Notes: generated by a model not told the origin, from the letters alone. A DNA stretch of 64,000 nucleotides from an uncultured Saprospiraceae bacterium (GCA_937950315.1 CALFDU010000105.1:1-64000), one strand, 5' to 3'. Positions 26,167 to 36,593 are shown, numbered from the stretch's first letter. Numbers and translations are program-made.

Positions 26167-27939
26167 ATGATCTCTTTTCAAACTGACCAACAGAAATGGT
26201 TGTATGTTCTGTCTCAACTATTCCGAAACTTAGACAAATCAGTCCTACAACAAATCTTACAAGTTGGTACCATTTCAAAATTTGATTCCGGAGAACAAAT
26301 ATTCAAACAAGGAGATATCGAAAACACCTTCTTTATTGTCTTGTCTGGCAGATTTAGAGCTGTTTCCGAATCAAAAGATAAATTTACCGTCCTTGGAGAT
26401 ATTACAGAGGGAGAATCAGTTGGCGAGTTTGCTTTTTTTAGCGATGACGTTCGATCTGCAACCGTTTATGCAATGAGACCTTCTGTCACCATAGAATTGA
26501 CAAAAAAAGAGTATTTGCAGATCGTGGCAATGGAACCTGAGTTTGCTCAGAAATTAACCACATTGATTGTCAATAGATACCAGAGCAATAGTCTTCAAGA
26601 TAAAATAAAAGATGCTCCAAAGAATATTGCCATTATCAATCTTCATGAAAATACCGACTTAAGTCCTTGGACTCAATTGATTGAAAATGAATTATTAGAT
26701 AAAAAGATAGAATTTCAACTCCACAATCATGAGTCTATCAAAAACCAAGATCACGAAACATTCTTCAACAAGTTAGAATCTACCGATGACATTAAGTTTT
26801 TGGTTTGTAGCCCATCTCATCCAGAATGGTCAAAACAATGTTATATATATGCAGACTTAATCATTATTGCTGCAGAATTTGGTAGTGATCCAACAATTCA
26901 TTCTATTGAGTCAGACCTACAATTGTATGCCAGAAATATCTTGAGAAAAAATGTTTATCTGCTTTTGCTACACGAAGATCAAGCATCAAAACCAACCAAT
27001 ACGAGAAAATGGTTTGAGAACAGAGAAATTGACTTACATATCCATTTTAGAAAAAACCAATTTGATGCTGCAAGATTTTGTAGAATAATAACCAATCAAG
27101 CAGTTGGCGTTGTACTGGGAGGAGGAGGAGCAAAAGGTTTTGCCCACTTAGGAGCATTGCGGGCCTTGTATGAAGAAAAAATCCCTGTTGACTTTTTAGG
27201 TGGTACTAGCGCAGGAGCACTGTACGGATTGGCTGTTGCAAATTTTGATTTTGATTTTGAAAAAATGGAGAAACATACAAAGGAAGCCATTGACAAAAAA
27301 TTGACTTCAGGCGATTTAACCTATCCTATCATGTCATTAATGGCGGGTAAAAAAATGAAGAATTATCTATATGATTTCTATCAAGACACGCGACTAGAAG
27401 ATTTCTGGATTACATCCTTTTGTATTACCTCAAACCTATCCGCTGCTTCTCTTTCATTTCACGAAAGTGGACTCGCTGCTCAAAAGATCTTAGCCAGTAT
27501 TGCTATTCCTGGAATATTTCCTCCGGTCATCATCGATCACCAACTTCATGTTGATGGAGGTGTTATGGACAACCTTCCTATTAAGTCAATGTATCAATAT
27601 CCGGTAGGCGAAATAATCGCTTTTTCCTTACTAGCCATCAAACAAAAAAAATCAAAGCTGGCAGAAACACCAACTTCCAGAGAATTATTACTGAATAAAA
27701 TATTAAGAAGAAAAAAATACCGTCTACCTGGTATCACTTCTATCATCATGAATTCTTTGACATTAAACAGTGTCCAAAAGCAAGAAGAAAACAAAGCAAA
27801 GGCATCTTTGTACTTTGAATTAAATTTAAAAGGCTTTGGTTTTATGGATGATTCTAAATGGAAATCTATCATCCAAAAAGGATTTGATCAGACAAAAGAA
27901 TTTATAAAAAATATAAAAGAAGAAAAACGGTTTTGGTAA
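26167..27939 (+). CDS. Patatin-like phospholipase gated by a cyclic-nucleotide-binding domain
   Basis: Encodes 590 residues of the NTE/YchK-like group. Residues 20-135 are a cyclic-nucleotide-binding domain with the phosphate-binding cassette GEFAFFSDDVRSATVYA (Glu87, Arg96), so cAMP binding is plausible. A middle region (150-305) has a Rossmann-like pattern as in bacterial NTE proteins. The patatin domain (312 to about 500) has the oxyanion loop GGGGAKG (318-324), the nucleophile elbow GTSAG (346-350, Ser348) and DGG (463-465), so the Ser-Asp dyad is complete. It should hydrolyse phospholipids or lysophospholipids at the membrane. The next gene on the same strand, 100 bp on, encodes an adenylate cyclase. 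Confidence 0.93.
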   Translation: MISFQTDQQKWLYVLSQLFRNLDKSVLQQILQVGTISKFDSGEQIFKQGDIENTFFIVLSGRFRAVSESKDKFTVLGDITEGESVGEFAFFSDDVRSATVYAMRPSVTIELTKKEYLQIVAMEPEFAQKLTTLIVNRYQSNSLQDKIKDAPKNIAIINLHENTDLSPWTQLIENELLDKKIEFQLHNHESIKNQDHETFFNKLESTDDIKFLVCSPSHPEWSKQCYIYADLIIIAAEFGSDPTIHSIESDLQLYARNILRKNVYLLLLHEDQASKPTNTRKWFENREIDLHIHFRKNQFDAARFCRIITNQAVGVVLGGGGAKGFAHLGALRALYEEKIPVDFLGGTSAGALYGLAVANFDFDFEKMEKHTKEAIDKKLTSGDLTYPIMSLMAGKKMKNYLYDFYQDTRLEDFWITSFCITSNLSAASLSFHESGLAAQKILASIAIPGIFPPVIIDHQLHVDGGVMDNLPIKSMYQYPVGEIIAFSLLAIKQKKSKLAETPTSRELLLNKILRRKKYRLPGITSIIMNSLTLNSVQKQEENKAKASLYFELNLKGFGFMDDSKWKSIIQKGFDQTKEFIKNIKEEKRFW

Positions 27940-28039: not shown

Positions 28040-30112
28040 ATGAGTAATGAAAAACGTAGACAATTGTCTGCTATACTTTTTGCAGATATCCAGGGTTATT
28101 CAGCCTTAATGCAAGCCAATGAGGCAAAGGCAATGAAATTCCTGAATCACTACCAAAGTATTCTACAGGAATCAGTCTCTAGTCATAAAGGTGAAGTGGT
28201 AAAAAATTATGGAGATGGAAGTTTGTGTCTTTTCAACAGCATTCTTTCGGCAGTTTTATGTGCACAAGATCTTCAATTGCAATTAAGAAAAGAACCCGTT
28301 GTACCTCTTAGGATTGGATTACATGTCGGAGATATTATGCACGCTGGAAATGATGTGTATGGTGATGCCTTAAACATAGCTGCAAGAATAGAATCAATGG
28401 GTGTCCCAGGCTGCGTATTGTTGTCGGATAGTATTTACAACAAAATAAAAAACCAAGCACATCTTAAAATGGAAAGCCTTGGTGAATTTGAATTCAAGAA
28501 TATTGAGCAGGCAATAGAAGTATTTGCTTTGGCCAATGATGGATTGGTAGTCCCTGAAAGATCGCAACTTTCTGGAAAGTTTAAAGAAAAAAAGAAAAAG
28601 ACATTTGCTTCAAGCAAAATTTTATGGCTGCTTCCTATACTTTTACTTCTAGGAACGGCGTGGTATTTTGCTGGTCCAAGTCGCACAAAAGATGAGGTCA
28701 CAGATCAAAATTTATCAAAGCTAAAGGAAACTCCAACCAAAGAAAACTCAATTGCGGTCTTGGCATTTGCAGACATGAGCAACGAACAAGATCAAAAGTA
28801 CTTCTCAGAAGGTATTAGTGAAGAGATTCTAAATCTATTGACTAAGATCCCCGACCTAAAAGTAATTAGTCGTTCTTCTTCATTCGCCTTCAAAGATAAA
28901 AATGTAACCAGTTCAGAAATCGGAAGTGCGTTAAATGTAAATCATCTACTGGATGGAAGTATCAGAAAATCGGGAAATACATTGCGGATATCAACCCAAT
29001 TAATCGAAGCGATAAGCGGTCAACAATTATGGTCAGAAGTCTATGATCGACCGATGGATGATATTTTTAAAATCCAAGATGAAATTGCAGATAAAATAAT
29101 AAACGAACTTGAAATCAACTTGATGGGCAAAACCATCCATTCTAAAACTGTAGACATCGAGGCTTACAATTTATACTTAGAAGCAAAACAATTGATGGAG
29201 GAACGCAATTACAAAAGTGATAGTCTTGCTGAGAAAACAATTAGAGCTTCCTTGAAAATCGATAGCACCTATGCACCCTCCTGGGCTCTGTTGAGTGAGG
29301 TGGTTTATAATGGGGCATTGAGCTTTTCCAGATATACGATACCAGAGGCAATGCCCATCAGTATTGAGGCAGCAAAAAAAGCGATTTCGTTGGATCCTGA
29401 AAATTCAGGAGGATATATTTCATTGACTACTTTGAACCGAGCAGAAAATGATTTTGAATCTGCCGATAAAAATTTAGCAAAGGCATTAGAAATTGATCCT
29501 ATCAATGTAAATGCTATTTATGAAGCATCTAGTTATGCATTGGATTTGGGAAATATGGAAGACGCTATTTCGCAGATTCATGAAGCCATCCGACTAGATC
29601 CAGTCAACGACCTTTTATATTATACACTCGGGCTTTACTCTATCTGGGTAGAGGATCTAAATACTGCAGAGGTAAACATGGCCAAGTACCTCAAAACAAA
29701 TCCGAGCTCCGGTCTTGCAAATAATTTTATGTCGCAAATTTATCTCAAGCAGGGAAAAATCAAAGAAGCATTTGCTGCTTTGGAAAAAGACAGCGATCCA
29801 TATTGGAATAACTATAGAAGAAGTATCCTTGAATATGGCGCCGGTAATATTGATAAAGCAGACGAATATCTAAATCAATTTATCAAAGAGTATGGACACG
29901 AAGGGTGGCCCAACATCGCTCATATTTATGCATACAGAGGCGATAAAGACAAAACTTTTGAATGGCTAGAATTGGCTCGTAAAAACAATGATGCATCTCT
30001 ATTTGAAATTCTAAACTACCCTGAATTCAACATACTCAAAGATGATCCGAGATGGAATGCCTTCATCGCAAAACTAAACTTACCAAAGCACGAAAAATTT
30101 TCATCTAGATAA
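28040..30112 (+). CDS. Class III adenylate cyclase with TolB-like and TPR domains
   Basis: Encodes 690 residues: N-terminal class III cyclase domain (1-165), one membrane helix near 198-214 (ILWLLPILLLLGTAWYFAG), a TolB/FlgO-like domain (about 235-375: SIAVLAFADMSNEQDQKYFS) and C-terminal TPR repeats (about 380-670). Catalytic residues are present: metal Asp D16 and D59, K55 and D105 in the adenine-specifying positions, N112 and R116. The cyclase part faces the cytosol, the TolB/TPR part the periplasm. This layout is common in Bacteroidota and Proteobacteria. It follows the cyclic-nucleotide-binding patatin by 100 bp, so the pair may form a local cAMP-to-lipase circuit. A perfect hairpin precedes the start. 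Confidence 0.9.
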   Translation: MSNEKRRQLSAILFADIQGYSALMQANEAKAMKFLNHYQSILQESVSSHKGEVVKNYGDGSLCLFNSILSAVLCAQDLQLQLRKEPVVPLRIGLHVGDIMHAGNDVYGDALNIAARIESMGVPGCVLLSDSIYNKIKNQAHLKMESLGEFEFKNIEQAIEVFALANDGLVVPERSQLSGKFKEKKKKTFASSKILWLLPILLLLGTAWYFAGPSRTKDEVTDQNLSKLKETPTKENSIAVLAFADMSNEQDQKYFSEGISEEILNLLTKIPDLKVISRSSSFAFKDKNVTSSEIGSALNVNHLLDGSIRKSGNTLRISTQLIEAISGQQLWSEVYDRPMDDIFKIQDEIADKIINELEINLMGKTIHSKTVDIEAYNLYLEAKQLMEERNYKSDSLAEKTIRASLKIDSTYAPSWALLSEVVYNGALSFSRYTIPEAMPISIEAAKKAISLDPENSGGYISLTTLNRAENDFESADKNLAKALEIDPINVNAIYEASSYALDLGNMEDAISQIHEAIRLDPVNDLLYYTLGLYSIWVEDLNTAEVNMAKYLKTNPSSGLANNFMSQIYLKQGKIKEAFAALEKDSDPYWNNYRRSILEYGAGNIDKADEYLNQFIKEYGHEGWPNIAHIYAYRGDKDKTFEWLELARKNNDASLFEILNYPEFNILKDDPRWNAFIAKLNLPKHEKFSSR

Positions 30113-30113
30113 T

Positions 30114-30995
30114 CTACCGATCAAATTCTTTGTAGTCAATTGAAGGATCGTAATCTTGATTGGTCGTAATGGAATACAATTCACTTTCTGGCTTGTCAGA
30201 TTTAATGAAGGGAAACATCAATTGAACATACCATGGTTCTTTCATCTGATTCCAGGCACCAAAACGAGTAGGATACTTTCTTGTAATCTTGGCAGTGCCA
30301 AAAATGACATCCCAAATAAACAATAGGTTTCCATAATTTCCATTGGGATGAGAAACACCGTCTTCTTCTGTCAGACCATGATGAGCAAAATGAGTACTAG
30401 GAGTAGATATCAATCTTTCAATGACCCAAGCCAAAGGATGTAATATTTTATACTTATATAGAAATCGATCCCACTTTGTTTCGCTATGCGCAAATAGAAT
30501 TACCACCAATTTGATTGGAAGATAAAATAGGTACACGTAACCCATTCCAAAAAAAATCAATAATGCTGAAAACCAAATACCAGGCATTAATGCATAATAT
30601 AATATTGCATTTCGGTAAGTAACAAGTACGCCCATCTCTTCTACAACATGGTGTGGTCTATGTAGCTTCCACATCATTCGATTGGAATGTGACAAACGAT
30701 GCCACCAATATTGCGTCATATCATCCAACACGAGAAATGCCACGATATGCCACACCACCCCAACACCAATAAAATAATCTTCAAATTGTGGAAACCAAGT
30801 CTGGCATAACCAAATGGTGACAACAAAAATGGCAGGCTGAATAAGCGTCGGTAAAGTAAACAAACTGACCAATTCGATGGTCCAGTCGTTTTTGGTTCTT
30901 TTGTCATCAAAATACAACCCACCCATGGCTTCCATCACTCCTAGCACGAGCAACATGAAAACGGGAATAGATTTGCTGATTACAAGTGGGTCCAT
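30114..30995 (-). CDS. Sterol desaturase/fatty-acid hydroxylase family protein (1)
   Basis: Encodes 293 residues with four or so membrane helices and the family's di-iron histidine motifs: WHRLSH, KLHRPHHVVEEMG and a late THFAHHGL. Enzymes of this family use O2 and two irons to hydroxylate or desaturate lipids in the membrane. The lipid substrate is not known. It is the last gene of the minus-strand sulfur block, 171 bp after the cytochrome c gene, so it may or may not share that transcript. It is paralogous to the hydroxylase at 32926-33990 (both have HH.VEEMG). Its stop abuts the adenylate cyclase stop on the other strand. Confidence 0.88.
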   Translation of the reverse strand: MDPLVISKSIPVFMLLVLGVMEAMGGLYFDDKRTKNDWTIELVSLFTLPTLIQPAIFVVTIWLCQTWFPQFEDYFIGVGVVWHIVAFLVLDDMTQYWWHRLSHSNRMMWKLHRPHHVVEEMGVLVTYRNAILYYALMPGIWFSALLIFFGMGYVYLFYLPIKLVVILFAHSETKWDRFLYKYKILHPLAWVIERLISTPSTHFAHHGLTEEDGVSHPNGNYGNLLFIWDVIFGTAKITRKYPTRFGAWNQMKEPWYVQLMFPFIKSDKPESELYSITTNQDYDPSIDYKEFDR

Positions 30996-31166
30996 TTCTT
31001 CATTTTATACCTGGCTTGTCAAGATAATCAAAAACTTAATACAACAACGTATCCACCATAGACAATGGTCCTACAAAAATGAAAAAATCAGATTTACATT
31101 ACAAACCAACAAGCAAAGCCAATATTGAAATTGAAATCCACAAGCTAAGCTAGAAAGGAATTAAAA

Positions 31167-31697
31167 CTATTCGCTCTCGTCATCTAAATCCAAGATGTAC
31201 CACTTGATCGCAGCGACATCGATGTTTTTCCTGCGACCCACCTCTTCCGGAGCATAGTGCTTAGCTAGGTAGTTCACTATCGCGGGTTCGCGTATTCCCA
31301 GATCGGGAAGGCCTTGTGTTTCTTGCATCCAATCAATCAAATTTTCCCACCCACTTCGCGTGGCACGATTCTGTGTGATCAACTTGGCAGAGTGGCAAGA
31401 GGTGCAAGCACCGATGACCAACTGCAAGTCCTTATCTGCCTTTAGCCCAGTTTTCACATGGATGCCGTTTTCAATGAGATTCCAATTGTCGCCACGGGCT
31501 TTTGCTTGGGCCATTTCTCCCCGCTCGGTCAATTTATCCAACTGCTCTTGGGTGTATTTCGGCCTATTGAGAAAATCGTTGATCTGGTCTTCCAAGCTTA
31601 GATACATAAATGCAAGCACTGCCAATACAACGACCAAGTTGATCATCAACATGAGCATCCTCCAAGAATCCGATGTATCGTATCGATGGTCTTCCAT
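31167..31697 (-). CDS. Membrane-anchored monohaem cytochrome c, sulfite dehydrogenase partner
   Basis: Encodes 176 residues: one N-terminal membrane anchor (LMLMINLVVVLAVLAFMYL) and one haem-binding site CTSCH (GACTSCHSAKLITQNRATR), with a C-terminal region that should supply the axial Met or similar ligand (no clear ordinary Met motif was seen after the haem site). The gene starts directly after the stop of the sulfite dehydrogenase gene, with no gap. In SorAB-type enzymes a small cytochrome c is the electron acceptor of the molybdenum subunit, which fits well here. The single CxxCH and the anchor place it in the periplasm at the inner membrane. Confidence 0.85.
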   Translation of the reverse strand: MEDHRYDTSDSWRMLMLMINLVVVLAVLAFMYLSLEDQINDFLNRPKYTQEQLDKLTERGEMAQAKARGDNWNLIENGIHVKTGLKADKDLQLVIGACTSCHSAKLITQNRATRSGWENLIDWMQETQGLPDLGIREPAIVNYLAKHYAPEEVGRRKNIDVAAIKWYILDLDDESE

Positions 31698-32924
31698 CTA
31701 TGAAATTTTTACTGCGATTCTGTGACAAGCATTGTTCAAATATCCCTTAGGGTTCCAACCCGGCAATAACATAGGCTGTGTGTTTCCGTCTGAATCTGTG
31801 GCTCTTGCCCACAACTCATAGTAACCCGTTTGTGGAAACGAAACCTTGGCATCAAAATGTTGCCATGCATATCTGTTTGTACTTTCAGAGACTGTAGCCT
31901 CCTTCCAGCTCACTCCAAAGTCAATTGAATACTCGACCTTGGTAATTTCTCTTCCCGAGGTCCACGCGTGTCCTGCTATCGGAAGCAATTGATCGGCCTT
32001 GATGGTTGCACCCGTTTTGGGAAAAGATATAAGAGACTTAACGGGCATATCTTCAATGATGCACATATCCTTTTCATCCACTTTCTCACCAGGTGCCACC
32101 GGAGAACATGGAGTTCTATAGGCTGTACCCAGCATTTTTTGTCCATCGTGGACTTGGTCTCTGATTACTATTTTTTCCAACCACTTTCCAGAGCAAGATG
32201 CTGGATAGCCTCCAAATACCAATCTCAATGGATATCCATTAAGCATCGGAAGATCTTGATCATTCATCGACCAAGCAATCATACTTTCTTCTTCCAACGC
32301 CTTGGCAATCGGCACCCCTCTTGAGATGGAATCCTTGCCTGGGTCTCCAGACAAATGTGTGTCAGCACCGTAATAACCTAGATAGACTGCACTGGATTTT
32401 ATGCCTACATCATTCAATACGTCTTTCAATCTCACACCCGTCCATTTCACACAACCAACCGCTCCTACACTCCACTGATTTCCTTTCGCAGGAGGACTGA
32501 ATTCTTTTCGCCCATTACCTCCGCACTCCAATGTTATATCATAACTAACATTTTCAAATTTTGATTTTAGTTCGCTGATGGTGTAGCTCTTTGTCTTACT
32601 TGCCGACTCTCCAGTGATGGTTAATTTCCATTTGGTCGGATCGATATTGACAGGAGGAAGTCCATTGTTTCGCACAAAAAATAGATCATTGGGTGTCAGT
32701 GAATCATTTAATAAATGCGCTGGCGTTTCCATATTGATGGGACGATCATTGAGAACCGTCATCAGTTGGTTCTTACCAGGAAACTGATTGTCCATGGATT
32801 CTCCCAACCCAATCAACTCAAGTCCTTCAGGCAAATTGTGTCCAAAAACAATATTCGTTCCCAAGGAAATACCCAGTGATGCAAGTATTGAATCTTTAAT
32901 AAATTTCCTTCGCTGATTGCTCAT
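31698..32924 (-). CDS. Sulfite dehydrogenase, molybdopterin subunit (SorA/SoxC-like)
   Basis: Encodes 408 residues of the sulfite oxidase family. A twin-arginine signal is seen in NQRRKFIKDSILASLGIS, so the folded enzyme is exported with its cofactor. The molybdopterin domain (about 55-290) has the Mo-ligand Cys in LECGGNGR, and the dimerisation domain (about 300-400) closes the protein (AGHAWTSGREITKVEYSIDF). It should oxidise sulfite to sulfate in the periplasm and pass electrons to the cytochrome c encoded immediately downstream. Upstream lie a lipid hydroxylase, a sulfurtransferase and a rhodanese, which together point to breakdown of reduced sulfur. SoxC-type dehydrogenases are close relatives, but no Sox genes are present. 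Confidence 0.9.
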   Translation of the reverse strand: MSNQRRKFIKDSILASLGISLGTNIVFGHNLPEGLELIGLGESMDNQFPGKNQLMTVLNDRPINMETPAHLLNDSLTPNDLFFVRNNGLPPVNIDPTKWKLTITGESASKTKSYTISELKSKFENVSYDITLECGGNGRKEFSPPAKGNQWSVGAVGCVKWTGVRLKDVLNDVGIKSSAVYLGYYGADTHLSGDPGKDSISRGVPIAKALEEESMIAWSMNDQDLPMLNGYPLRLVFGGYPASCSGKWLEKIVIRDQVHDGQKMLGTAYRTPCSPVAPGEKVDEKDMCIIEDMPVKSLISFPKTGATIKADQLLPIAGHAWTSGREITKVEYSIDFGVSWKEATVSESTNRYAWQHFDAKVSFPQTGYYELWARATDSDGNTQPMLLPGWNPKGYLNNACHRIAVKIS

Positions 32925-32925
32925 C

Positions 32926-33990
32926 TTAGTCTTTGTTTATCCTTTCGTGGTCAGAAGCCTTAAAATTCTTACCCGAAATTCCGAGAAGTGATTGTTGTAA
33001 AAACTTATCAGGAAATTGTTCTACTCCTGGAAATCCAAGTTTGATATCTTTCCCATTATGAGGAATGTACGCAGTGCCAAAAATATAATCCCAAATAGAT
33101 AAAGTAAGGGCAAAATTCACCCCATACCTTCTTTCTTCCGGCAACTCAAATGAGTGATGCCAAATATGCATTTCAGGACTGTTGAACAAATATTTCATAA
33201 TAGGACCCAATACAAGATAGCCTATTATTGCCGAAACGCCCAAGGTCATCAAGGTAGTCGACATCGTTACCGTTTCAAATAAGTTGAAGTCGACCAAATT
33301 TTGACTTATTAAAAATCCAATCATAAGTGCAACAATCAAACCTGTATATCTATGATTGATCGAAATATTGGAATGGTTGTAATGACCCCACGCAAGGGTG
33401 AAAATATGAATGATAAAAAAGTCATGCAATCCAATTCCCAACAGAGCCAGTGGAAGATACTCTAGTGTTCTGTAAACAATATTTTCCATCCAGTGGTATC
33501 GCAAGTGTGCCGCAAATCCCATCTCTTCAACGGAATGATGTACCTGATGGAATTGCCACAACCATTCTGACTTATGCAGCAATCGATGAATCCACCATTG
33601 CACAAAATCTCTGATCAAAAATCCGACCACCAAAATAGACCACATAGGCCAACTCGTCATTGGGTTGTTTTGCCTCAAGTCAAATCCTCCACTGATTGCC
33701 TTGATACCGTCATTGAAAAGATTCACAAGAACATCGGAAGCGGCATTGTAGATGATCAAGGAAAAGATGAAGAAATTAAAAAACATGTAAAAAGCATCAA
33801 GCCAAAAATCCTTTCTCAAAATCGCCTGTTTTTTCCTCCAAGGAACAACCACTTCCAGCACAAAAAAGAACAATGACACCATGATCAACCAATAGAAATA
33901 ACTTCTAAAAGAAGGATGTGTAATTTCATGCCACAAATATCCAGCATACCCTTTGTAGCCTTCAATAAATATATCTAAGTATTTCTCCAT
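32926..33990 (-). CDS. Sterol desaturase/fatty-acid hydroxylase family protein (2)
   Basis: Encodes 354 residues with several membrane helices and the di-iron motifs HRLLHKSEWLWQFHQVHH (two His sets) and MHIWHHSFE, as expected for membrane O2-dependent lipid hydroxylases. It sits 1 bp from the sulfurtransferase gene upstream and the sulfite dehydrogenase gene downstream, so it is a true operon member. Why a lipid hydroxylase should be made together with sulfite dehydrogenase is not explained by known pathways. A sulfonolipid or other sulfur-containing lipid is one idea, but no synthase gene for one is here. It is paralogous to the gene at 30114-30995. Confidence 0.9.
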   Translation of the reverse strand: MEKYLDIFIEGYKGYAGYLWHEITHPSFRSYFYWLIMVSLFFFVLEVVVPWRKKQAILRKDFWLDAFYMFFNFFIFSLIIYNAASDVLVNLFNDGIKAISGGFDLRQNNPMTSWPMWSILVVGFLIRDFVQWWIHRLLHKSEWLWQFHQVHHSVEEMGFAAHLRYHWMENIVYRTLEYLPLALLGIGLHDFFIIHIFTLAWGHYNHSNISINHRYTGLIVALMIGFLISQNLVDFNLFETVTMSTTLMTLGVSAIIGYLVLGPIMKYLFNSPEMHIWHHSFELPEERRYGVNFALTLSIWDYIFGTAYIPHNGKDIKLGFPGVEQFPDKFLQQSLLGISGKNFKASDHERINKD

Positions 33991-33991
33991 A

Positions 33992-35029
33992 TCAATTTAC
34001 ATTTGCGATAAGCGAATCTTTTGTAATTTTATATTTCTCTTCGTCACTCTGGATGACAGGAATGCTGTTGTCCAAAGAATGTTTGTAACTCCATTCGATC
34101 CATGAGCCATCGTAATTTTTGACCTGCTCATAACCCAATACATGTTTCAACACATAAAAGGTATGAGATGTTCGAGAACCACTTTGACAATACAGAATTA
34201 TTTTTTTATTTGGAATGATTCCGAGGCTATCTAGATCATATCGTAAATCATTCTCTGACTTAATCCGATGATCCCCATTCAAGTCAGCCAATTTGGCCCA
34301 GTTTAAATTTATAGCGGTAGGAATACTTCCCCTTTCAAATGCTCCCTTTTTATATGGATGTATCTTGCCTTCATTAAGATACGGCAAGCCTTGGTATTCG
34401 AATGACTCTCTCGTATCTACCAACAAAGTATTTGGATCATCGATCGCTTCCAACACATCATTGAAAGATGCAATAATTGAGTCATCAAAATCTGTATCAA
34501 GCTGAAAGTTGGTTTCCTTAAGTTGCTTTCCCTCACCTCCTTGGGTTGGCAGACCCGATATCTTCCAAAATTCAATACCTCCATTCATGATTTTAAATTC
34601 ATCAAAACCATACAAATTTAGCACCCAAGCAAATCGAAATGCATCCACATTGGCTTTTGCATCATAAAGAATAAGGGTTTTCCCTTCTTCATACCCAAGC
34701 TTTTGCAAAAGTTTTTGTAGCTTTTCTTTTGATGGTATCAGACCTCCGTATGGCACCGTTACATCAGAACCATAATCCGGTCTCCAGATATTCTGTGCGT
34801 TGGGGATGTGCTCCGAGCGAAAAGTATTTACTTTCGATACTTGAATGGGAATATAAGCTTTTGGGTTTTCCAAAATCAGCGTATTGGCAGTCAATGGATC
34901 GATCAAGTTATACGCTTTGATCTCTGATTTATCTTTTGAATAAAGTTCAGTGTTTGATACGGTCGACCGATCACTTTTACAAGCACCCAAGACAACCAAA
35001 AAACCAAAAATTACTCCACTCATTTTCAT
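33992..35029 (-). CDS. Two-domain rhodanese lipoprotein (sulfurtransferase)
   Basis: Encodes 345 residues from the ATG at 35029 (a GTG at 35038 is less likely). A lipobox (FLVVLGACKSD) marks a lipoprotein. Two rhodanese domains follow. The N-terminal one (about 45-165) has no catalytic Cys (LILYDAKANVDAF has Asp at that place). The C-terminal one (about 190-320) has the persulfide Cys in LYCQSGSRTSH. This is the normal pattern of SseA/RhdA thiosulfate or mercaptopyruvate sulfurtransferases, but here exported. It should move sulfane sulfur in the periplasm, upstream of the sulfite dehydrogenase in the same operon (one base to the hydroxylase gene). A possible internal promoter -7 box (TACATTTG, 35082-35075) precedes it without a -33 box. 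Confidence 0.9.
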   Translation of the reverse strand: MKMSGVIFGFLVVLGACKSDRSTVSNTELYSKDKSEIKAYNLIDPLTANTLILENPKAYIPIQVSKVNTFRSEHIPNAQNIWRPDYGSDVTVPYGGLIPSKEKLQKLLQKLGYEEGKTLILYDAKANVDAFRFAWVLNLYGFDEFKIMNGGIEFWKISGLPTQGGEGKQLKETNFQLDTDFDDSIIASFNDVLEAIDDPNTLLVDTRESFEYQGLPYLNEGKIHPYKKGAFERGSIPTAINLNWAKLADLNGDHRIKSENDLRYDLDSLGIIPNKKIILYCQSGSRTSHTFYVLKHVLGYEQVKNYDGSWIEWSYKHSLDNSIPVIQSDEEKYKITKDSLIANVN

Positions 35030-35174
35030 ATACAACACACTAACTATGAAAGACCTGATCTAAGTTGCTTTCGCCAAATGTAAAAACAATTCCACAAGTA
35101 CACTTACGCATTGATCACAATATTTCTTTTATTCTTCGATCCATCACAACATCAATATTTATCAACTTGCATTT

Positions 35175-35807
35175 TTATCTTGCAATTACAATATATTGTG
35201 TCTCCAACAAATCGTTGTTGACCTCAAATTCATCAAACCCTGCCACCATCAATTCTTCCTTCACTTTATCCACTGCCACTCGATATCTTTTTGGCGGACC
35301 CGGAGACTTTACTTCTTTTTTAAAATCAACAACCATCAAACTTCCTTCCCTATTTATTCCATTTTTTACTTTCGTAAAATAGGCTTCGCGATCTTCAATG
35401 TGATGATAGGTATTGACAATAATCACATGATCAACTTCCTCTTTTTTCAATAACGGATCTTCATACTCTACTTTGCGTGTGGAAACGTTATTTGAGTTTG
35501 ATTTCAATCTTTTTTCTTCTATATAATCCAAAAAACGATCATCTACATCCGCTGCAATAACTTTCGCTCCTTTATCCGCCATTCTAAATGAAAAATACCC
35601 AGTCCCTGCTCCGATATCCATGATTTTCTTCCCAGCAATGTCTCCAAATAACGCAATAACCTCATCTGGTTTTTGAGATTTTGTTCGTGTTGGGTCTTCA
35701 AATCTTTTGACCAGATTTTCAAATTTGTTTCTATTCATAAATGAATTAGAATCACCTGCGCAACTTCCGAGCAAGATTACCAATAATATCAACGAGATTT
35801 TTTTCAT
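35175..35807 (-). CDS. SAM-dependent methyltransferase with lipoprotein signal
   Basis: Encodes 210 residues from the ATG at 35807 (the longer frame starts with TTG). The N-terminus is a lipoprotein signal (ISLILLVILLGSCAGDSN). Class I methyltransferase motifs follow: motif I in MDIGAGTGYFSFRMADKGAKV, motif II acid in ADVDD, and post-I residues in VIIVNTYHHIEDREAYF. An exported SAM enzyme is odd because SAM is not expected in the periplasm. Either the signal is not used, or the fold has another role. It starts 17 bp after the rhodanese stop. The substrate is not known; a small sulfur or metalloid compound would fit the operon. Confidence 0.85.
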   Translation of the reverse strand: MKKISLILLVILLGSCAGDSNSFMNRNKFENLVKRFEDPTRTKSQKPDEVIALFGDIAGKKIMDIGAGTGYFSFRMADKGAKVIAADVDDRFLDYIEEKRLKSNSNNVSTRKVEYEDPLLKKEEVDHVIIVNTYHHIEDREAYFTKVKNGINREGSLMVVDFKKEVKSPGPPKRYRVAVDKVKEELMVAGFDEFEVNNDLLETQYIVIAR

Positions 35808-35824
35808 TGTCTGAAACAACTGTT

Positions 35825-36187
35825 TTATTTACCCTTATTGTCTACGATCTCTTTTACTGCCTTCCAGCTACCGCCATTCATTACATTGTCAAATCCATTG
35901 CTTTGTAAAATCTGCATTGCCTTGCCGCTGCGGTTACCACTTCTACAAAATACCACAATGTTTTTCTTTCCTTTAAATTCTCCTAAGCGACTTTCTACGT
36001 CGGATAAAGGAATGTTGATAGCTCCATCCACACTCCCCCCTGCAAATTCTTTTGGCGTACGAACATCGATCAAAGCTGCTCCATCCTGTATTAATTTTTG
36101 TAATGCAGGATCGGTTGATCGATTTACAAAGACAAACATCACTACAATCAAGAAAACTGCAACACCCAAAATTATTTTCATCATCAT
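35825..36187 (-). CDS. Single-domain rhodanese, membrane-anchored
   Basis: Encodes 120 residues with one N-terminal membrane helix (IILGVAVFLIVVMFVFV) and a rhodanese domain ending in the active-site loop VVFCRSGNRSGKAM, so the catalytic Cys and the anion-binding loop are present. It carries sulfane sulfur, cyanide-type or persulfide transfer, in the periplasm. Three consecutive ATG codons begin it (36187, 36184, 36181). It is the first gene after the regulator, with an imperfect palindrome 22 bp before its start. Confidence 0.92.
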   Translation of the reverse strand: MMMKIILGVAVFLIVVMFVFVNRSTDPALQKLIQDGAALIDVRTPKEFAGGSVDGAINIPLSDVESRLGEFKGKKNIVVFCRSGNRSGKAMQILQSNGFDNVMNGGSWKAVKEIVDNKGK

Positions 36188-36208
36188 ATTTAATTTTACT
36201 TAACCCTC

Positions 36209-36226
36209 AATACTTATTGAAGTATT
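36209..36226. promoter_or_regulatory. Operator-like palindrome before the rhodanese gene
   Basis: AATACTT-ATTG-AAGTATT has perfect 7-bp arms around a 4-bp centre. It ends 22 bp before the ATG at 36187 and agrees at 14 of 18 positions with the element at 36581-36598, which is 22 bp before the arsR start. A probable target of the ArsR-family protein. Confidence 0.65.
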
Positions 36227-36247
36227 CAATTATTAATTTAAAAAATG

Positions 36248-36559
36248 CTAGATCAAATCACATTTGTCTAGACAATCCAACAAACTAAGAACAGATTTTT
36301 CTGCAATATTATAAAACACTTGCTTACCCATTTTTTCAGAATGTAAAATCCCGTTATCGCGCATTTTTGAAAGGTGGTGTGACATCATACTGATCTCACA
36401 ACCCGAGCCGATCTGTTCGCACAAAGACGAAACATCCATTGCGCCATTGCTTCCCAAAAGTTGCAAAATCTCCAACTTTACTGGATGAGCAACGACCTTA
36501 AGCAACCTTGCCGCGTTCTGTAATCTTTTATCCGATAATATGGCTACTTCATTGTTCAT
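36248..36559 (-). CDS. ArsR-family regulator of the sulfur operon
   Basis: Encodes 103 residues from the ATG at 36559 (the longer frame to 36577 would begin upstream of the promoter's start point). It is a winged helix-turn-helix of the ArsR/SmtB family: ARLLKVVAHPVKLEILQLL, recognition helix SMMSHHLSKMRDNGIL and wing EKMGKQVFYNI. Cys are at 47 and 54 (SSLCEQIGSGCEIS) next to the recognition helix and at 96 and 100 (LLDCLDKCDLI) at the C-terminus. This arrangement suits metal, metalloid or persulfide sensing; in BigR/SqrR-type relatives two Cys form a sulfur bridge. With rhodanese and sulfite dehydrogenase downstream I favour reactive sulfur as the signal. Confidence 0.85.
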   Translation of the reverse strand: MNNEVAILSDKRLQNAARLLKVVAHPVKLEILQLLGSNGAMDVSSLCEQIGSGCEISMMSHHLSKMRDNGILHSEKMGKQVFYNIAEKSVLSLLDCLDKCDLI

Positions 36560-36563
36560 ATTG

Positions 36564-36593
36564 CAAAGATATAACATTTTAACAGTTATTCAA
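36564..36593 (-). promoter_or_regulatory. Promoter of the arsR/sulfur operon
   Basis: On the minus strand TTG (36593-36591), 19-bp spacer and TATCTTTG (36571-36564) match the Bacteroidota consensus. The -7 box ends 4 bp before the ATG at 36559, so the mRNA should be near-leaderless. The -33 TTG lies inside the palindrome at 36581-36598, a natural arrangement for repression. Confidence 0.65.

Follow-up and report, generated by a model that had tools for sequence, protein, structure and literature searches.

A putative membrane oxygenase gene within a predicted sulfur-oxidation operon of a Saprospiraceae bacterium recurs beside sulfur genes in relatives

Results and Discussion

The analyzed sequence (the window, a 64,000-nucleotide stretch from an uncultured Saprospiraceae bacterium) carries a gene cluster, arsR-sorB, which is probably an operon for sulfane-sulfur and sulfite oxidation under the control of a thiol-based ArsR repressor. 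Within it lies hyd1, encoding a predicted membrane oxygenase of the FA_hydroxylase/sterol-desaturase family. On the same reading, this protein would be a working part of the operon, most likely one that hydroxylates a membrane lipid or another lipid-soluble molecule. Gene order supports this view: among 150 distinct hyd1 loci, 82 contain a sulfur-oxidation gene no more than 5 kb away.

Organization of the locus

The putative operon extends from position 36593 to 31167 of the minus strand and comprises, in this order, a promoter and the genes arsR, rhodanese, methyltransferase, TST2, hyd1, sorA and sorB (Table 1). Gaps of 1 bp separate TST2 from hyd1 and hyd1 from sorA, and there is no gap (0 bp) between sorA and sorB. 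The methyltransferase and TST2 ORFs are approximately 136 bp apart, so a second transcription start is possible there. An earlier note on this DNA had described a sulfur operon that includes two lipid hydroxylases, and profile matches located all eight of its genes with the claimed domains: besides the two hydroxylases (that within the operon matching PF04116), these are an ArsR regulator with Cys pairs, a rhodanese, a methyltransferase with a lipobox, a two-domain rhodanese lipoprotein, a SorA-like Moco subunit with a twin-arginine N-terminus and a SorB-like cytochrome with a CxxCH motif. The one-base gaps that the note placed between both hydroxylase genes and the sulfur genes were found on each side of hyd1, but not at hyd2, which starts 171 bp past the stop codon of sorB.

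Table 1. Features of the locus and of related loci
Feature	Position	Strand	Basis or remark
Bacteroidota-type promoter TTG-N19-TATCTTTG	36564..36593	-	pattern scan; directly before arsR
arsR-type regulator	36248..36559	-	NCBIfam HTH_metalloreg above cut-off
Candidate ArsR operator TTGAATACTTCAATAAGTATT, 21 bp	36209..36229	-	between arsR and next gene
Membrane-anchored single-domain rhodanese	35825..36187	-	PF00581 1e-15
Class I SAM methyltransferase, lipoprotein-like N-terminus	35175..35807	-	PF13847 2.7e-13
TST2, two-domain sulfurtransferase lipoprotein	33992..35038	-	PF00581 5.6e-28, two stretches
hyd1, FA_hydroxylase/sterol-desaturase-family membrane oxygenase (predicted)	32926..33990	-	PF04116 1.6e-23
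SorA-like molybdopterin sulfite-dehydrogenase-type catalytic subunit, Tat-type N-terminus	31698..32924	-	PF00174 3.8e-48
SorB-like membrane-anchored mono-haem cytochrome c (CTSCH)	31167..31697	-	SorB 26.8 bits
hyd2, second FA_hydroxylase	30114..30995	-	PF04116 1.8e-22; judged outside the system
Second cassette half: DUF983, PDO-rhodanese fusion, YeeE, YedE/DUF6691	L241:4440-7332		same genome, contig C1
Membrane protein of 75-92 aa	L098:8355-8606	+	relatives in L107, L108, L134-L136, L146, L210, L213, L214, L220, L224

In two of the nearest relatives, G118 and G017, the corresponding genes form one colinear operon, arsR-SulP-PDO/rhodanese-rhodanese-MTase-YeeE-(YedE)-TST2-hyd1-sorA-sorB. Half of the cassette that relatives keep together is present in the window; the DUF983-PDO/rhodanese-YeeE-YedE part is located on a different contig of the same genome. 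DUF983 genes recur near sulfur genes in several relatives.

Promoter, regulator and candidate operator

A pattern scan of the minus strand from 30 to 48 kb gave the promoter as its sole match, and the element is kept upstream of the orthologous arsR in loci L013 and L014. Because this conserved element (TTG-N19-TATCTTTG) ends at 36564, the start codon of arsR is probably at 36559 rather than at 36577, as given in the earlier note.

The regulator has two Cys pairs, located in SSLCEQIGSGCE and LLDCLDKC, which are retained in its nearest orthologues (L013 and L014). Its nearest solved relatives among the PDB matches are E. coli YgaV (3cuo) and BigR (3pqj). BigR repressors are marked by a reversible di- or tetrasulfide that forms between two Cys residues upon persulfide exposure. 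The ArsR protein of the window resembles the sulfur-sensing repressors BigR, YgaV and SqrR in its fold, Cys pairs and position before rhodanese/PDO genes, but it scores 42 bits against the BigR model NF040642, below the equivalog cut-off of 155, and sulfur sensing is a putative function here. It may place the operon under co-regulation by reduced sulfur.

The candidate operator TTGAATACTTCAATAAGTATT occurs once in the window, with 0.03 occurrences expected when 3 mismatches are allowed. A similar element was found at the same place in L013 and L014, where it precedes sulP and not the rhodanese gene. No copy was found before the DUF983/PDO operon on contig C1.

Sulfur-transfer and sulfite-oxidation genes

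The rhodanese and TST2, judging by their families, are predicted to transfer sulfane sulfur. TST2 has the active-site loop YCQSGSR, and its Cys20 (lipobox) and Cys284 are nearly invariant among 15 homologues.

The methyltransferase, whose start codon is probably the ATG at 35807, had been considered as an exported core component. Of 150 Saprospiraceae genomes, 112 have homologues of this protein, for the most part outside the operon. As the family is common and mostly located elsewhere, this candidate was rejected; the gene is probably accessory and not conserved in the operon. Several of the homologues have His-rich N-terminal segments.

The catalytic subunit encoded by sorA scores 273 bits against the SorA model NF052245, below the curated cut-off of 600, and is hence named SorA-like only. 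When its residues were numbered by alignment to Starkeya SorA (2blf), Cys104, Arg55 and Tyr236 were found to be kept as C134, R85 and Y269, which are invariant or nearly so in homologues; loss of the catalytic Tyr was thereby ruled out. Asn87 takes the place of His57. All 41 Saprospiraceae homologues compared carry Asn here, whereas His occupies the site in a true SoxC from a relative. The adjacent mono-haem cytochrome scores below the SorB cut-off (26.8 versus 93 bits), and its CxxCH motif is conserved in 40 homologues. The pair thus resembles Starkeya novella SorAB in the Moco and dimerisation domains, the Moco Cys, the Arg55 and Tyr236 equivalents and the neighbouring cytochrome, but differs in both scores, in the His57 replacement and in the membrane anchor of the cytochrome. 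Sulfite oxidation is the best guess for its function and is not certain, because the Moco Cys, Arg55 and Tyr236 equivalents are kept but His57 is changed to Asn.

The hyd1 protein

The hyd1 product matches PF04116 with 84 bits (gathering threshold 31) and is a long form with an insert of about 55 residues. The full set of His residues, H135, H139, H148, H151, H152, H166, H203, H206, H275, H278 and H279, is invariant in 26 diverse homologues. Di-iron oxygenation is the activity predicted from this family. The best NCBIfam match is the ornithine-lipid hydroxylase OlsE (NF052566), with 80 bits; a short-form relative of hyd1 scores 115 bits. The protein is like OlsE and the PF04116 family in its domain and His motifs, but it differs in a score far under the equivalog cut-off of 475, in the insert and in its sulfur-gene neighbours.

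A search of solved structures with the hyd1 sequence gave no match, and a Foldseek search with its AlphaFold model (pLDDT 82) gave no significant one (E about 4). The top structural match of the model (VIA) was the hydroxylase domain of Scs7p, the yeast sphingolipid alpha-hydroxylase (Z 5.0, 171 residues, rmsd 5.0). This match is weak but agrees with the family assignment.

Linkage of hyd1 to sulfur genes

Conserved neighbourhood was examined in 199 Saprospiraceae genomes, which were searched with hyd1, sorA and hyd2; the loci chosen by each gene were fetched and their neighbours annotated. Genes hyd1 and sorA adjoin in more than 20 of these genomes. A more distant, short-form subtype (about 40% identical) also adjoins sorA in L053, L056 and L057. 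The set of 150 loci was picked by hyd1 similarity alone and comprised the top Saprospiraceae matches, a phylum-wide sample and named genomes. Within it, a sulfur gene is directly adjacent to hyd1 on the same strand in 64 loci, and in 40 of these lies within 30 bp. Sulfur genes make up 18% of hyd1 neighbours within 2 kb versus about 6% beyond 4 kb. The earlier note had named a lack of such conservation in relatives as a refutation; for hyd1, whose place beside sulfur genes recurs in relatives, the comparison did not refute its proposal.

The partners of hyd1 include rhodanese, the PDO-rhodanese fusion, SorAB, TST2, YeeE/YedE, TauE, SulP, an SQR-like protein, SoxB and a SoxA-like cytochrome. They are arranged as SQR, Crp, TauE-hyd1-small membrane protein-rhodanese in Algoriphagus marincola and A. 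kandeliae, TauE, hyd1-PDO-YeeE-YedE in Mesonia, YeeE-YedE, hyd1, SoxB-SoxA in Pontibacter, arsR-DUF983-rhodanese-hyd1 in Acidiluteibacter and hyd1-sorA-sorB in Portibacter marinus; SorAB partners are also present in Cyclobacteriaceae. In sulfur clusters, an uncharacterized membrane protein of 75-92 aa that matches no Pfam or NCBIfam model is repeatedly encoded immediately downstream of hyd1 or ahead of sorA.

A common membrane gene of Bacteroidota might also come to lie in sulfur islands by chance. Hyd1 is indeed frequent in Saprospiraceae, and 68 of the 150 loci lack any sulfur gene within 5 kb. However, when the presence of a sulfur neighbour was mapped on the hyd1 tree, parsimony gave 19 changes, at least 9 of them forced by strong branches, so the linkage does not reflect one inherited block; its recurrence with partners that differ by lineage argues for function over shared descent of such a block. 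The 40 loci with gaps of no more than 30 bp also speak against mere hitchhiking, as does hyd2, a control hydroxylase that gave none in 20, and we regard chance placement as quite unlikely.

For hyd2, orthologues of about 70% identity or above were considered, and no sulfur gene of the set was present within 5 kb in any of the 20 loci (0 of 244 genes). The link that the earlier note drew between two lipid hydroxylases and sulfur genes therefore stands for hyd1 (82/150 loci) but was rejected for hyd2, which we judge to be an unrelated neighbour outside the sulfur system, in a local neighbourhood. Its OlsE score is 52 bits (cut-off 475), and its other end is separated by a 1-bp gap from a convergent plus-strand gene (28040-30112). 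The latter is an adenylate cyclase-TPR gene, next to another plus-strand gene (26167-27939) whose translation reads as a fusion of a cyclic-nucleotide-binding and a patatin-like esterase domain.

The association extends to gene content, with hyd1 present in 62 of 67 SorA-positive versus 92 of 132 SorA-negative Saprospiraceae genomes (p=0.00015; counted by hand from tables, with kinship ignored). The many loci and genomes with hyd1 but no sulfur neighbour or SorA suggest that its role either reaches beyond sulfite oxidation or is not bound strictly to sulfur.

Proposed function of the operon

In the favoured reading, sulfane sulfur would be processed by the rhodanese and the TST2 lipoprotein, either at the membrane or in the periplasm. 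The persulfide-dioxygenase-rhodanese, whose gene lies elsewhere in the genome, would supply part of the sulfite, which the SorAB-like pair would oxidize while feeding electrons into the respiratory chain. The hyd1 protein, as an integral-membrane di-iron oxygenase induced together with the sulfur genes, would most likely hydroxylate a lipid-soluble molecule such as a membrane lipid, and its product may adapt the membrane during the oxidation of sulfide or sulfane sulfur. Lipid modification is suggested by membership of a family that does not by itself give the substrate.

A more direct role is conceivable, in which the di-iron centre oxygenates lipid-soluble sulfur (membrane-dissolved elemental sulfur, or persulfides of alkyl groups or lipids) so that rhodanese, PDO and SorAB can use the product. 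No recurrent lipid-synthesis gene was found beside hyd1 in the loci examined, the only recurrent partners found being sulfur-oxidation genes, and hyd1 also lies next to the gene for SQR, an enzyme that liberates sulfane sulfur at the membrane. Yet many hyd1 loci have no sulfur neighbours and we know of no FA_hydroxylase family member that oxidizes inorganic sulfur, which makes this role unlikely.

Alternatively, the substrate of hyd1 might be a sulfonolipid made at the expense of sulfite; the operon would then couple sulfite supply to sulfonolipid tailoring. Sulfonolipids are outer-membrane lipids of Bacteroidetes whose synthesis begins with a cysteate-using step (PMC9304779), and many hyd1 loci share genes for sulfite handling (SorAB, TauE, PDO). 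However, no cysteate or capnine synthesis gene lies beside hyd1 in the clusters examined, and we consider such coupling very unlikely.

The enzymes encoded around hyd1 relatives are those of the SQR-PDO-rhodanese pathway, by which heterotrophic bacteria oxidize sulfide and in which, as described, no membrane hydroxylase is known to us. Literature on sterol desaturase or fatty acid hydroxylase was searched for links to rhodanese, thiosulfate, sulfide or sulfite dehydrogenase; nothing relevant emerged from this search, which covered few subscription papers, and a report elsewhere is possible. Hyd1 appears to be a new, uncharacterized component within a known kind of pathway, and bacterial sulfur oxidation appears to involve membrane oxygenases of its type as a part that has been overlooked. 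There is a somewhat less than even chance that sulfur oxidation in Bacteroidota includes, as a dedicated component, membrane di-iron oxygenases from a widespread clade, which would either oxygenate membrane-dissolved sulfur or produce a special lipid that the process requires.

Sulfur oxidation has been little described in the Bacteroidota, which are abundant aerobic heterotrophs. Should a membrane oxygenase indeed belong to their sulfur clusters, either this process includes an unrecognized enzymatic step or it needs remodelling of the membrane, and the culturable hosts Algoriphagus, Mesonia, Pontibacter and Portibacter make the role of hyd1 directly testable.
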